Assembly (NCBI RefSeq): GCF_028737205.1
Contig: NZ_JAQZAL010000010.1
Coordinates: forward strand, 1-64,000
Source of the DNA: Actinomycetospora lutea
GTDB taxonomy: Bacteria > Actinomycetota > Actinomycetes > Mycobacteriales > Pseudonocardiaceae
Direction: 5' to 3'
DNA: 64,000 nt
The notes below the pieces were generated by a model, which worked only from the letters and a program-made list of their open reading frames with translations, ran no database searches and was not told the origin of the DNA. The position numbers were made by a program, and so were the translations under genes. This document shows positions 12,889-63,041 of the stretch, piece after piece (position 1 is the first letter of the stretch; every line of letters starts with the position of its first letter).

Positions 12889-13707
12889 ATGCCGACGGTG
12901 CCGCGGTTCCTCGAGGAGATCACCCAGCACACGAAGGGCTTCGCCGACGCCGTCCGGGCCGCCGGCCACGACGCGCCGGTGCCGTCCTGTCCGGACTGGA
13001 CCGTGCGCGACCTCGCCGACCACCTCGGCGGCGTCCACCGCTGGTGCACCGTGACCGTCGGCAACCCGGGGACGAAGCTCCAGCGCCGCGGGGCGACCAC
13101 CCCGCCGATGCCCGACGACGAGTCCGAGGTGTCGCTCTGGCTGCTCGAGGGCGCCGCCGCGCTCGTGCAGGCGATCCGCGACGCCGGCGAGGACACGCTC
13201 GTGGGCGGCTTCGGCGGCCCGGTGCCGGTGTCGTTCTGGGCGCGGCGGCAGTGCCACGAGACGCTCGTGCACCGGGCCGACGCCGAGATCGCCGCGGGGG
13301 TGCTGCCGCTCACCGACGTCGACCCGGTGATCGCGGCGGACGCCGTCGACGAGCACCTGGAGATGGTCGCGAGGGGCGCGAAGCGGCGGCCCGACCTGCG
13401 CGCCGACGGCGCCACGCTGCACCTGCACGCCACCGACGAGGGGCTCGGCGAGGACCGGACACGAAGCAATCAGGGGAGCACGCCGATAGGGGAGCTGGAC
13501 CATCGGCTCGGTGAGTGGGTCGTGACCCTCGGCGCCGACGGCCCGACGATCGAGCACGCGCACCGCAAGAGCGACACCGCCGTGCGCGGCCCCGCGCGGG
13601 CCCTGCTCACCGTGCTCACGGCCCGCGAGGGCCCCGAGGTCGCCGGTGTCGACGTCCTCGGGGCCCCGGACCTGCTCACGCGGTGGCGCGAGCACGGCGC
13701 GGTCTGA
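12889..13707 (+). CDS. Maleylpyruvate isomerase family mycothiol-dependent enzyme
   Basis: A 272-residue DinB-fold protein of the mycothiol-dependent maleylpyruvate isomerase family. The N-terminal four-helix domain carries a metal-site-like pattern: VPSCPDWTVRDLADHLGGVHRW near residues 29-49 and RRQCHETLVHRADAE near 120-135. A C-terminal SCP2-like part follows. Residues about 190-206 (TRSNQGSTPIGELDHR) are encoded by a 49-bp dispersed element that also occurs in an unrelated gene at 62982-63030. This is an in-frame insertion between the two domains. The substrate is unknown; the family includes aromatic-ring catabolic isomerases and mycothiol S-transferases. Confidence 0.85.
   Translation: MPTVPRFLEEITQHTKGFADAVRAAGHDAPVPSCPDWTVRDLADHLGGVHRWCTVTVGNPGTKLQRRGATTPPMPDDESEVSLWLLEGAAALVQAIRDAGEDTLVGGFGGPVPVSFWARRQCHETLVHRADAEIAAGVLPLTDVDPVIAADAVDEHLEMVARGAKRRPDLRADGATLHLHATDEGLGEDRTRSNQGSTPIGELDHRLGEWVVTLGADGPTIEHAHRKSDTAVRGPARALLTVLTAREGPEVAGVDVLGAPDLLTRWREHGAV
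13458..13506 (+). repeat. 49-bp dispersed element, copy A (inside the maleylpyruvate-isomerase-family gene)
   Basis: It begins GACACGAAGC and ends GAGCTGGACCATCGG. It matches copy B (62982-63030, minus strand) at 45 of 49 positions without gaps; the differences are at element positions 11, 20, 30 and 31. Both copies are read in the same codon phase, giving TRSNQGSTPIGELDHR here and TRSDQGGTPRGELDHR in copy B. The host genes are unrelated, so homology of the proteins does not explain the match. Confidence 0.9.
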
Positions 13708-31056: not shown

Positions 31057-32604
31057 ATGCGATCGCGGCAGCAGATCACCGTGCCGGGCCCGGAGGTCAA
31101 GACCACCGGCGGCGTCGTCCGCGGCATCACCACCCACGGCGTGCACACCTGGCGCGGCATCCCCTACGCCGCGCCGCCGGTCGAGGAGCTGCGGCTCCGC
31201 GCCCCGCAGCCGGTGGTGCCGTGGGAGGGCGTGCGCGACGGGTCGCGGTTCGGCCCCGTGCCGGTCCAGGAGCGGATCGGCGAGTTCATCGGCGCCGGCA
31301 AGGACACGCCGATGGGCGAGGACTGCCTGACCCTCAACGTCACCGCGCCGACCACGGCCCATCTCGATGGTCCGGCTCCGCAGGGCTCCGTGTCCGGCGA
31401 CGCGCCGCGCCCGGTGATGGTCTGGTTCTACGGCGGCGCGTTCGTCGTCGGCGCGTCGTCGGCCCCGACCTACCGCGGCTACGACTTCGCCCGCCGCGGC
31501 GACGTCGTCTACGTCAGCGTCAACTACCGCCTCGGCGCCCTGGGCTACCTCGACTTCTCCGCCTACGGCACCCCGGAGCGGCCGATCGAGGCGAACCTCG
31601 GCCTGCGCGACCAGATCGCGGCGCTCGAGTGGGTCCGCGACAACATCGCGGCCTTCGGCGGCGACCCCGAGCAGGTCACGATCTTCGGCGAGTCCGCCGG
31701 GGCGATCTCGGTGACGACGCTGATGGCGACGCCGGCGGCCCGCGGGCTCTTCCACCGGGCGATCGCCGAGAGCTCGGCGCCCGGCATGGTGTTCGGTCAG
31801 CGGCGCGCGCGGGAGTGGGCCGCCCGCTTCGTCACCGCGCTCGGGGCCGACGACGACCCGCTCGCCGGGCTCCTCGACGCCACCCCCCGGCAGCTCCTGG
31901 GCGCCGCGCAGGTCCTGCGCAACGACCTCGGCGACCAGCCCGGCACCATCCCGACCGCGCCCGTCGTCGACGGCGACCTCCTGCCCGAGTCCCCGCTCGA
32001 CGCCTTCGAGGCCGGCCGCGCCGCCGACGTTCCGCTGATCATCGGCACCAACGACACCGAGGGCCGCCTCTTCGAGCTGCCGCGCATGCGCCTCGACATG
32101 CTCGTCAGCGAGGAGCGCGCGCACCGCATGTTCGCGCTGACCCAGCCTGAGCTGCGCGACCAGGTGCTCGCCGCCTACGAGGGCCGGCCGTTCCGCAAGG
32201 ATCTCGGCGGCGACTACATGTTCTGGTACCCGTCGGTACGGATCATGCAGTCCCACCGCGGGCCGGTCTGGGCCTACCGCTACGACCTGACGACGCCGGT
32301 CCTGAACCTCATAGGGGTGCGCGCCACCCACGGCATGGAGCTCTACGCCGTCTTCGGGCTCGCCGACTCGGGCACCGCGAAGTGGCTGACCGCCCTCGGC
32401 GGCCGGCGCGCGCTGCGGGCGCTGCAGCGGCGGGTCCAGGACGACTGGACCCGGTTCGCCCGCGACGGCGCGCCCGCCTCGCACTGGCCGACCTACGACG
32501 CGACGACCCGCCTGACGAAGATCCTCGATCGCACCGACCGCATCGAGTCCGACCCGCGCCGCGAACGCCGCCTCGCGTGGGAGGGGTTCCGCGGGTACGA
32601 CTGA
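31057..32604 (+). CDS. Type-B carboxylesterase/lipase
   Basis: A 515-residue alpha/beta-hydrolase of the cholinesterase/para-nitrobenzyl-esterase family. Landmarks are GIPYAAPPVEELRLRAP, EDCLTLNVTAP, the oxyanion hole FYGGAF, the nucleophile elbow GESAGA (about residue 212), the acid in NDTEGRL and the catalytic histidine in THGMEL. Between EDCLTLNVTAP and RPVMVW lies an extra segment, HLDGPAPQGSVSG. Its DNA, read on the other strand, matches both ends of the 49-bp dispersed element with the middle deleted. No signal peptide is seen, so the enzyme is cytoplasmic. Confidence 0.9.
   Translation: MRSRQQITVPGPEVKTTGGVVRGITTHGVHTWRGIPYAAPPVEELRLRAPQPVVPWEGVRDGSRFGPVPVQERIGEFIGAGKDTPMGEDCLTLNVTAPTTAHLDGPAPQGSVSGDAPRPVMVWFYGGAFVVGASSAPTYRGYDFARRGDVVYVSVNYRLGALGYLDFSAYGTPERPIEANLGLRDQIAALEWVRDNIAAFGGDPEQVTIFGESAGAISVTTLMATPAARGLFHRAIAESSAPGMVFGQRRAREWAARFVTALGADDDPLAGLLDATPRQLLGAAQVLRNDLGDQPGTIPTAPVVDGDLLPESPLDAFEAGRAADVPLIIGTNDTEGRLFELPRMRLDMLVSEERAHRMFALTQPELRDQVLAAYEGRPFRKDLGGDYMFWYPSVRIMQSHRGPVWAYRYDLTTPVLNLIGVRATHGMELYAVFGLADSGTAKWLTALGGRRALRALQRRVQDDWTRFARDGAPASHWPTYDATTRLTKILDRTDRIESDPRRERRLAWEGFRGYD
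31365..31394 (-). repeat. Probable shortened, inverted copy of the dispersed element inside the esterase gene
   Basis: On the minus strand this 30-bp segment begins GACACGGAGC (9/10 match to the 49-bp element start) and ends GAGCCGGACCATCG (13/14 match to its end). The middle is 18 bp shorter, a multiple of three, so the host frame is kept. It encodes an extra loop in the esterase. Confidence 0.55.
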
Positions 32605-54774: not shown

Positions 54775-55748
54775 GCAGCAGCACCGTCGACATCACCGTG
54801 CCCGGACCCCCGCGGTGCGAGGAGGTCTCCGACGGCATCCACGCCTACGTCCAGCCCGACGGCACGTGGTGGATCAACAACACCGGGTTCGTCGTCGGGC
54901 CGCAGGGCGTGGTCGCGATCGACGCGTGCTCCACCGAGCGGCGCACCCGCGCGTTCCTCGACACGATCGCGTCGGTCACCGACCGGCCCGTGCGCACCCT
55001 GGTGAACACCCACCACCACGGCGACCACACGTTCGGCAACGCGCTCTTCGGCGGCGCCGCGATCGTGGCGCACGAGCGGACGCGCTCGGAGGCGATCGCG
55101 TTCGGCCCGGCGCGCGAGCTGCCCTACTGGCACAACCCCGAGTGGGGCGACCTCCCCCTCGACCCGCCGTTCGTCACCTACACCGACCGGATCGCCGTGC
55201 ACGCCGGCGACCTGCGCGGCGACGTCCTGTACGTCGGCACCCCGGCGCACACGACCAACGACTCGATCGTCTGGTTCCCCGACCGCTCGACGCTCTTCTG
55301 CGGAGACCTGATCTTCAACGGCGGCACGCCGTTCCTGCTCATGGGCTCGGTGGCGGGCGCGATCGACGTGCTCGAGAACGTCATCGCGCCGCTGGAGGCG
55401 CAGACCGTCGTGCCCGGGCACGGCCCGGTGTTCCACGACCGCGCCCCGCTCGACGCGACGCTGGACTACCTGCGCTTCGTCCTCGACGTCGCCCAGCGCG
55501 GCCGCGCTGCCGGCGTCAGCCCGCTGCAGGCGGCCCGCGACACCGACCTCGGCCGGTTCACCGACTGGCCCGACGCCGAGCGCATCGTCGGCAACCTGCA
55601 CCGCGCCTACGCCGAGCTCGGTGGGATGCGCAGCGAAGCGGAGCCGGACCCGTCGCCGGCGCTGGAGCGCGGCGGGCAGATCGACGTGTTCGGGGCGCTC
55701 GACGACATGGTGACCTACCACGGCGGCCCGCTGACCTGCTTCGCCTGA
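54771..55748 (+). CDS. Metallo-beta-lactamase-fold hydrolase
   Basis: A 325-residue MBL-fold enzyme. The dinuclear metal motif THHHGDH is intact (H81, H83, D85, H86), with later ligands in GTPAHTTNDSIVWF, LFCGDLIF and VPGHGPV. It is probably a thioesterase- or lactonase-like hydrolase rather than a beta-lactamase. The GTG start overlaps the FAH stop. The C-terminal segment GGMRSEAEPDPSPALERGGQ (about 283-302) looks like a local insertion before the conserved end. It is the last gene of the LysR-linked operon. Confidence 0.85.
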   Translation: MSSSTVDITVPGPPRCEEVSDGIHAYVQPDGTWWINNTGFVVGPQGVVAIDACSTERRTRAFLDTIASVTDRPVRTLVNTHHHGDHTFGNALFGGAAIVAHERTRSEAIAFGPARELPYWHNPEWGDLPLDPPFVTYTDRIAVHAGDLRGDVLYVGTPAHTTNDSIVWFPDRSTLFCGDLIFNGGTPFLLMGSVAGAIDVLENVIAPLEAQTVVPGHGPVFHDRAPLDATLDYLRFVLDVAQRGRAAGVSPLQAARDTDLGRFTDWPDAERIVGNLHRAYAELGGMRSEAEPDPSPALERGGQIDVFGALDDMVTYHGGPLTCFA

Positions 55749-61732: not shown

Positions 61733-62595
61733 GCCGTCTCCTTGCGCTCGCGTAGCCAGCGGGCGATCTCGGTGTGGTCCGCGGCGGGACCGAGGGCGGC
61801 GAGGGCCTCGTCCCAGAGCGCGACGGTCGCCGCGGCGTGCCGGGTGGGGACGCCGGTGCTCCCGGCGAGGTCGAGGGCGATGTGGATGTCCTTGACCATG
61901 AGCCCGATCCCGAAGCCGGCCCCGTACGTGCCGGGCAGGATGTGGTTCGGCCACTTGTTCTCCGTCGAGCCGCTGCGCCCCGACGACCCGTTGACGACCT
62001 CGAGCATCACCACCGGGTCGAGCCCGAACTCCTCGCCGACGAGCACCGCCTCGGAGCTCGCGACCAGGTGTGCGGCCGACATGAGGTTGTTCAGCGCCTT
62101 GAGCGCGTGCCCGGCGCCGACCGGCCCGACGTGGCGCGGCCGCCCCATCGCGGCGAGCAGGGGCTCCAGCTCGCCCACGACCTCCTCGGGGCCCCCGACC
62201 ATGATCGCGAGCGTGCCGGCCCGGGCGCCCGAGACACCGCCGGAGACCGGCGCGTCGACCAGCACGCGGCCGGTCTCGGCGAGCTGTGCCGCCAGCGCGC
62301 GGGTGCGCAGCGGCTCCGACGAGCTCATGTCGACGACCACCCGTGCGGCGTCGAGCTCGGCCACCACCGCCTCGACGACGTCGGAATTCGGCAGGCAGAG
62401 CAGCACCGCCTCGGCGCCGGTGGCCGTCTCCCCCGCCGACCCCACGACCGTCGCGCCGGGCACCGCCGCGGCGAACGCATCACGGGCGTCGGGCGACGCG
62501 TCGTACGCCCGGACCGTGACCCCGGCGTCGACCAGCCGCGACGCCATCGGCGTGCCCATGTGCCCGAGGCCGACGAACCCCACGGTGCGCGTCAC
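61729..62595 (-). CDS. 3-hydroxyisobutyrate dehydrogenase-like NAD(P)-dependent oxidoreductase
   Basis: A 288-residue beta-hydroxyacid dehydrogenase. The Rossmann motif FVGLGHMGTPMASRLVDAG is at 7-25, the substrate-binding DAPVSGGVSGARAGTLAIMVGG near 116-137, and the catalytic lysine block VGPVGAGHALKALNNLM near 158-174. Family members oxidise 3-hydroxyisobutyrate, tartronate semialdehyde or similar acids. GTG start in a GTGA overlap with the CMD gene. A second, different member is encoded at the right edge of the window. Confidence 0.9.
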   Translation of the reverse strand: MTRTVGFVGLGHMGTPMASRLVDAGVTVRAYDASPDARDAFAAAVPGATVVGSAGETATGAEAVLLCLPNSDVVEAVVAELDAARVVVDMSSSEPLRTRALAAQLAETGRVLVDAPVSGGVSGARAGTLAIMVGGPEEVVGELEPLLAAMGRPRHVGPVGAGHALKALNNLMSAAHLVASSEAVLVGEEFGLDPVVMLEVVNGSSGRSGSTENKWPNHILPGTYGAGFGIGLMVKDIHIALDLAGSTGVPTRHAAATVALWDEALAALGPAADHTEIARWLRERKETA

Positions 62596-63041
62596 AGCCG
62601 CCCCTCCTCGGCCAGCACCTTCTCGGCGACCCGGAACGCCTCCAGCCCCGCCGGCGCGCCGCAGTAGACGGCCGCCTGGAGCAACGCCTCCTGGATCTCC
62701 CCGGTCGTGCACCCGGTGCTCAGCGCGCCCCGCACGTGCACGGCGAGCTCGTGCGAGCGGCCGAGCGCCGTGAGCATCACGAGGTTCAGCAGGCTGCGCG
62801 TGCGCCGGTCGAGACCCGGCCGGTCCCAGACCTCGCCCCAACAGGCGCGGGTCACCCACTCCTGCATGGGCCGCGAGAACTCGCTGACGTCGGCCATCGA
62901 GCGCTCGACGTGGGCCTCGCCGACGACCTCCTTGCGGACCGCGAGACCGCGCTCGAAGCGGGGATCGCTCCCGTTGCCGTCCCGATGGTCCAGCTCCCCC
63001 CTCGGCGTGCCCCCCTGATCGCTTCGTGTCCCGCCGCTCAT
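62592..63041 (-). CDS. Carboxymuconolactone decarboxylase family protein with an added N-terminus
   Basis: A 149-residue protein. The body matches 4-carboxymuconolactone decarboxylases: RFERGLAVRKEVVGEAHVERSM, FSRPMQEWVTRACWGEVWDRPGLDRRTRSLLNLVMLTALGRSHELAVHVRGALSTGCTTGEIQEALLQAAVYCGAPAGLEAFR. Its usual start lies near RFERG. Here the first 27 residues are extra, and residues 5-20 (TRSDQGGTPRGELDHR) come from copy B of the 49-bp dispersed element. ATG 63041 overlaps the cupin stop (ATGA). It probably acts in beta-ketoadipate-like ring-product catabolism. Confidence 0.85.
   Translation of the reverse strand: MSGGTRSDQGGTPRGELDHRDGNGSDPRFERGLAVRKEVVGEAHVERSMADVSEFSRPMQEWVTRACWGEVWDRPGLDRRTRSLLNLVMLTALGRSHELAVHVRGALSTGCTTGEIQEALLQAAVYCGAPAGLEAFRVAEKVLAEEGRL
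62982..63030 (-). repeat. 49-bp dispersed element, copy B (at the start of the CMD gene)
   Basis: Read on the minus strand it matches copy A at 45/49 positions, with the same boundaries and the same reading frame relative to the host gene. It begins 11 bases after the A of the ATG start codon and supplies most of the extra N-terminus of the CMD protein. Confidence 0.9.

Follow-up and report, generated by a model that had tools for sequence, protein, structure and literature searches.

Small Mobile Repeats of Bacteria

Very small mobile repeats are known in several bacteria, and how a few dozen bases move is mostly unsolved. Among the closest described systems are the Rickettsia palindromic elements (RPEs), which in the account of PMC10969869 are about 150 bp long and encode a conserved peptide. 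As far as that account extends, the repeats of Actinomycetospora that we describe here resemble RPEs in being small mobile elements that lie in frame within unrelated protein genes in many copies, but differ in having a unit of 36 or 54 bp, in using several frames, and in occupying gene junctions with many of their copies. Of the RPE features that were tested, presence within genes and in frame was found, but a single conserved peptide frame was not. Mycobacterial interspersed repetitive units (MIRUs), in the portion of PMC12548453 that introduces them, insert at the start codons of genes with a coupled ORF at -4 nt. The present repeat is likewise short, actinobacterial and apparently mobile, a likeness by description; unlike the MIRU as described there, it is directly followed by an ATG in only 15 of 150 Actinomycetospora copies, and many copies lie within genes.

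REP-type repeats are treated in PMC3116915 and PMC3733652, where, in the sections that concern them, Y1 transposases (RAYTs) are the proposed movers and CGTC-type REPs are also presented as being without a known transposase. Compared with REPs and REPINs as outlined in these sources, the Actinomycetospora repeats are similarly small hairpin repeats of high copy number with no transposase gene of their own, but no Y1 transposase was detected in 18 genomes of the genus, the stem is short, with conserved mismatches and no palindrome, and copies are frequent in genes. A hairpin-forming strand, as in REPs, is indicated by covariation of the stem, and minimum-energy folds came out without that stem. 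As to the GTAG or CGTC tag that REPs have at one end, 10 of 148 right tails start with CGTC. What might correspond to the terminal inverted repeats of a MITE is limited to four covarying pairs at GG..SR / YS..CC. The small dispersed repeats (SDRs) of cyanobacteria, which go back to Elhai et al. in 2008, are reportedly very small mobile repeats of about 21-27 bp; they share with the present family the very small size and the lack of a known mover, and the host differs. By these comparisons the family would be classed as very small non-autonomous dispersed repeats.

Four Copies in the Window

The window, a stretch of 64,000 nucleotides of the Actinomycetospora lutea genome, contains two near-identical 49-bp segments, at 13458-13506 (+) and 62982-63030 (-). 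Their ungapped alignment has 4 mismatches in 49 positions, in agreement with the 45 identical bases reported at these places in the first-pass annotation, and a pattern covering both stretches with up to 3 mismatches matched exactly twice in the window and never in 100 dinucleotide shuffles. The host genes had been named as a mycothiol-dependent isomerase-like gene and a gene of the CMD family, which Pfam confirms: host gene 1 carries PF11716 (MDMPI_N) at residues 9-132 and, at 28.3 bits and hence under its cut-off of 29.5, PF07398 (MDMPI_C) at residues 148-263, and host gene 2 carries PF02627 (CMD) at residues 59-140. Four family copies are present in total, copies 3 and 4, both of the short form, being additional to the two named earlier. 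The features are as follows.

12889-13707, + strand: host gene 1, mycothiol maleylpyruvate isomerase-like (Pfam)
13457-13510, + strand: copy 1, 54-bp unit (pattern, alignment and nine congener orthologues without the element)
13457-13501, + strand: conserved 45-mer of copy 1 (GGACACG...GGACC), followed by its 9-bp variable tail at 13502-13510
13468-13490, + strand: 23-bp core cassette of copy 1 (AATCAGGGGAGCACGCCGATAGG), in place of one GNAGC of the 27-mer form (long and short forms at the same sites across species)
31360-31395, - strand: copy 4, degenerate 36-bp unit (27-mer at 31369-31395 plus 9-bp tail)
55624-55659, + strand: copy 3, 36-bp unit (27-mer at 55624-55650 plus 9-bp tail), in a PF00753 metallo-beta-lactamase-superfamily gene
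62592-63041, - strand: host gene 2, carboxymuconolactone decarboxylase (CMD) family (Pfam)
62978-63031, - strand: copy 2, 54-bp unit (conserved 45-mer at 62987-63031 plus 9-bp tail at 62978-62986)

Copy 4 lies antisense within a PF00135 carboxylesterase gene (31057-32604, +). Copies 1 and 2 are indeed translated in the same frame. As to their placement, copy 2 does lie N-terminally, as had been proposed, and is inserted behind the third codon, but copy 1 is not strictly between domains, since it forms about residues 190-207, within the stretch assigned to the C-terminal domain of host gene 1. The ATCGG at the right end of the 49-bp stretch belongs to a loose tail, the unit being 36 or 54 bp.

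Copy 1 is absent from nine congener orthologues of host gene 1, with a length difference of 54 bp in eight and 51 bp in one (nine orthologues were counted, six further matches being partial), and is the only long copy that was seen empty in nine congeners. Copy 2 is absent from three congeners (length differences of 54, 54 and 45), and in a fourth, G007, its site holds the 27-bp short form with an identical 9-bp tail, ATCGGGACG, and a length difference of 18. Copy 2 is not simply a fresh 54-bp insertion, as the short form stands at that site in another species. Copies 3 and 4 each show a 36-bp difference from four congeners.

A Genus-wide Family in Two Lengths

Both window stretches belong to a family of very small, non-autonomous dispersed repeats that extends through the genus. 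The base element, or short form, has 27 bp and reads GGASRC-(GNAGC)3-YSGACC; in the long form, of 45 bp, a 23-bp cassette of roughly RNYCAGGGGAGCACGCCGATAGG replaces one GNAGC. In the alignment of long copies, the conserved part runs from a left end near GGGA to a right end at GACC, with 45 bp from GGA to GACC and a loose tail beyond. The A. lutea genome (6.53 Mb in 106 contigs) contains more than 200 family copies. With up to 3 mismatches allowed, searches of this genome placed the 24-bp core AGGGGAGCACGCCGATAGGGGAGC at 68 positions and the 27-mer at 184, where the reversed controls gave 1 and 0, respectively; a variable-gap pattern of the two ends matched 150 times and its control twice. The short form is the commoner of the two. 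The outcomes that would have counted against the first-pass annotation did not appear: the genome has other copies, and orthologues in distant genera with the segment did not turn up, in a comparison that covered congeners.

The 27-mer also forms tandem arrays, with periods of 35, 36 and 38 bp in G002 (L401-L404) and of 36 bp in both A. lutea (L437) and G097. The spacers in the G002 and A. lutea arrays bear a partial likeness to the outer flanks.

The family is genus-wide in Actinomycetospora and nearly absent from related genera. The 24-mer was found in 18 of 297 genomes of the taxonomic family, all 18 belonging to Actinomycetospora, and in none of the 279 outside the genus, and the end pattern occurs in all 18 Actinomycetospora genomes with 2 to 163 matches per genome. 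Among 110 genomes, the 20-bp core was restricted to four, all Actinomycetospora, and the 27-mer to 12, comprising the same genus with four genomes of 111-184 matches each, seven genomes outside it with one match each, which is the level of the reversed control, and G097 with 3. In G097, which represents another genus of the same taxonomic family, the three 27-bp units stand in tandem with a 36-bp period (L438, G097:C1:231700-235800), a possible case of horizontal transfer. Viral contigs and plasmid and phage collections gave no match to the family, an Rfam scan gave none in the window, and the literature searched, mostly without subscription journals, yielded no description of it. The last 16 bases of the element, used as an exact pattern against genome contigs, gave among the matches listed mostly unrelated records and some from Actinomycetospora.

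Filled and Empty Sites Define the Unit

For 20 further long copies, including window copy 2, the flanks were searched in six congeners and the orthologous stretches were aligned. Across the 21 long loci, the difference from the closest usable congener of the first set was 54 bp in 14 and 53 bp in 3, with 57, 51, 45 and 18 bp once each; this set, which has G016 for all 20 loci and otherwise mostly short-span rows, favors empty sites. Short loci, taken as the first 15 of 25 short matches, showed a 36-bp difference from at least one congener in 12 cases. The unit is therefore usually 27+9 or 45+9 bp, and its length is the same for copies in genes and between genes. With many copies and exact-unit presence or absence at orthologous sites, the initial proposal of a short mobile or recombinogenic element is supported, its mover and role being putative.

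We used the 27 of 35 loci that passed the identity filter to place the edges of the unit. Up to position -3 from the first G of the element, the left flank agrees with the empty site (0.56-0.96 per position), as the right flank does from +2 on (0.67-0.93 per position), and in the CSGG zone between them left and right both match about half. At the expected target position GG is found in 41 of 128 single copies, compared with 6-20 at most other right-flank positions and 29 and 30 at two. A GG-like site marks the edges of the unit, in most cases with no target duplication, which as a rule is short or absent; three tests did not find a systematic 8-9 bp target duplication as the rule. Direct repeats of 6-7 bp occur at 3 of the 19 loci tested (L123, L150 and L176), all of them start/stop junctions, and the left and right 9-mers agree at 58 of 167 positions, against 46.8 (s.d. 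5.4) in shuffles, of which 54 in 2000 reach 58 (L143 was excluded and L137 skipped). Given these repeats and this slight agreement, there may be a weak or lost target duplication. The right tails are alike across loci, with 264 identical 5-mer pairs compared with 46 in column shuffles, whereas the left flanks are not.

Shared Sites and Switching between Short and Long Forms

Among 19 congener stretches of longer span (at least 19 longer), 12 hold the element at or near the site and 7 do not match, two of the latter resembling degraded units. Overall, the element is also present in at least one congener at 9 of 21 long and 5 of 15 short loci, cells without detectable anchors being left unknown in the site-occupancy table, and the occupied sites are often empty in closer relatives. 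The 9-bp tail agrees with that of A. lutea at 7 or more of its 9 positions in 13 of 20 occupied cells; in the other 7 the tail differs, in part through another register (L123) or an off-register variant (L143). Where A. lutea has the long form, 12 of 14 occupied congener cells have the short one, with a difference of exactly 18 bp in 10 of these 12.

On a tree of the joined flanks, A. lutea and G016 form one pair and G007 and G015 another; even so, A. lutea and G007 have sites in common that neither G016 nor G015 has, and 10 of the 14 shared loci require 2 or 3 changes on this tree. Many copies are therefore old, shared or exchanged rather than recent insertions. One site can hold the short form, the long form or nothing in three species, and from this patchy presence and the 18-bp differences it follows that gain, precise loss and short/long switching are all in play. 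It is in exact units that a site is filled, emptied or exchanged, and the cassette comes and goes in place; at single sites, insertion and loss would look alike in these sequence comparisons. As a separate observation, G015 and G007, although paired on the flank tree, have 2 and 163 end-pattern matches, respectively, a contrast that suggests either wholesale exact loss or rapid gain.

A Covarying Stem and Its Orientation in Genes

The two ends of the element can pair on one strand. In an alignment of 50 long copies, the four pairs GG..SR / YS..CC are formed in 89.5% of 200 cells, compared with 69.0% in shuffles and 16-47% at shifts of 1-3 columns, and the covariation score of the stem is 0.543 as opposed to 0.199 in the control. 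This set derives from 68 copies, 55 of which were kept by two conserved positions before 5 more were dropped as off-register or odd. At one pair of the stem, 28 of the 50 copies have C-G and the other 22 have G-C; before the 5 were dropped, the same pair was C-G in 30, G-C in 23, T-G in 1 and G-G in 1. Both inner pairs are strictly complementary in 97 of 128 single copies of both forms. The element had been called not palindromic, which is right in that there is no DNA palindrome but overlooks the covarying stem that the ends form on one strand. On either side of the stem the columns left unpaired read GA, which would give tandem G.A pairs on the pairing strand only. The repeated CGNAG resembles GCGNAGC, which we take to be a stable mini-hairpin with a GNA loop. 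GCGAAGC is given as a short hairpin in the relevant part of PMC5430850. Minimum-energy folds of the consensus strings contained neither the proposed stem nor tandem G.A pairs nor mini-hairpins.

Using a codon model trained on the window, we found 43 of 156 copies to be in-gene, that is, with one open coding frame on both sides. The pairing strand is the mRNA sense strand in 37 of these 43 (p about 2e-6 if independent, which copies from related genomes are not) and in 67 of 82 co-directional junction copies, again from related and hence not independent genomes. As 32 of the 37 sense copies would remain open if reversed in place, stops do not explain the bias. The sense bias makes an RNA route thinkable, and selection after insertion or replication direction could also yield it. 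In nearly all frames of either strand the short form reads open, and of 84 long copies 53 are closed in one sense frame. In-gene 27-mer copies are read in frames +0 (12 copies), +1 (7), +2 (3), -0 (3) and -1 (1), and 45-mer copies in +1 (8), +2 (7), -0 (1) and -1 (1). The proposal that the element is selected to stay open in one frame was therefore not borne out, as in-gene copies use several, and the frame common to the two window copies is no rule. Of 150 copies, 15 have an ATG at one of the first three offsets that follow the element, and further on there are 0-4 per offset.

How the Repeats May Spread

The best explanation, to which we give somewhat better than even chances, is that of small non-autonomous repeats that spread via one folded strand, with exact loss and in-place exchange of the cassette. 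The units would spread through a single strand, of DNA or RNA, folded as a stem with tandem G.A mismatches around GNA-loop mini-hairpins and presumably handled by a factor other than a Y1 transposase; PF01797, the Y1 transposase family, had no match in the 18 Actinomycetospora genomes, and control genomes were positive in 5 of 14. Slippage from one edge's CSGG-like repeat to the other may account for exact loss, and copies would exchange the 23-bp cassette in place. With a length divisible by three and most frames open, in-gene copies would be tolerated, and the added peptides would be by-products. A bolder reading, which we think unlikely, has a 36-nucleotide element, which would rank with the smallest mobile elements known, spreading as folded sense-strand RNA into transcribed regions without target duplication, in frame-keeping units of 36 or 54, with exact removal and with short/long switching in place by a 23-bp module that is also found in unrelated hairpin repeats of Actinomycetospora.

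The main rival, possible though clearly less probable than the folded-strand explanation, is replication slippage, template switching and recombination alone: hairpin-promoted slippage at CSGG-like repeats would remove or multiply units, copying at 2-4 bp microhomology would seed sites, and recombination between species or copies would shuffle their states. Such processes would fit the unit edges in the CSGG zone, the frequency of GG at the predicted target site (41 of 128 copies), the tandem arrays near 36 bp, the exact and phylogenetically scattered presence or absence, and the contrast between 163 end-pattern matches in G007 and 2 in its flank-tree sister G015. However, neither whole units at hundreds of unrelated sites nor the strong sense orientation is expected from random microhomology events. 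It is improbable that the repeats are MITEs moved by an ordinary DDE transposase whose 8-9 bp target duplication has since decayed. The constant 9-bp surplus beyond the conserved 27 or 45 bp, the direct repeats of 6-7 bp at L123, L150 and L176, and the weak similarity of left and right 9-mers would be remnants of that kind, and the age of many sites leaves time for decay; yet agreement of the right 9-mers with the empty site is poor, at 71 of 167 positions compared with a mean of 46.8 in shuffles and with 84-96% for the anchor flanks, right tails are alike across loci and left flanks are not, and the tail is often conserved across species at the same site (at least 7 of 9 bases in 13 of 20 cells), so decay is not general.

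Classical REPs or REPINs moved by a RAYT (a Y1/HUH tyrosine transposase) are of similar size and, going by what PMC3116915 says of them, likewise have one strand that pairs, many copies, clusters, and target duplication that is slight or absent. The 0 of 18 genus genomes with PF01797 (5 of 14 controls positive) and the 43 of 156 copies that lie in genes make this more doubtful still, and the REP/RAYT system was rejected on the absence of PF01797 from the genus genomes. A conserved regulatory RNA motif, maintained gene by gene through selection as a leader, attenuator or ribosome-binding module, would have the covarying stem on the sense strand, the 15 of 150 copies with ATG within the first three offsets, and the sites common to several species in its favor, but is very unlikely given that most of the congener sites compared are empty, that many copies lie in unrelated genes, and that Rfam had no match in the window. 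Ordinary protein homology or chance convergence might be read from the similar in-frame peptide of the two window copies, and we hold it to be negligible: 45 of 49 bases are identical in unrelated genes, copies lie in several frames and between genes, and nine orthologues of gene 1 are without the segment, such empty sites refuting it.

With hundreds of copies, exact filled and empty sites, two interchangeable lengths, a covarying strand, a sense bias and no Y1 transposase found, the family makes gain, exact loss and form switching directly testable. As the unit usually adds whole codons (36 or 54 bases), it can sit within genes without breaking them, and the family is a frame-neutral source of short protein insertions.

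The Core Cassette outside the Family

The exact core GAGCACGCCGATAGGG has 34 matches in the A. lutea genome, 7 of which are without the family ends, and one such end-less copy (L239) is flanked by 9-bp inverted arms. A different repeat of G001 contains the core in six copies (L386-L391), of which three have GAGTG/CACTC-like arms; in G002 (L394) the core stands between GCCAGC and GCTGGC. These sequences suggest that the cassette may be a loop module common to unrelated hairpin repeats. A core-only sequence that encodes LGEHADRGAR stands at the same place in apparent orthologues of A. lutea (L153) and G004 (L207), and some core copies are therefore old and shared.
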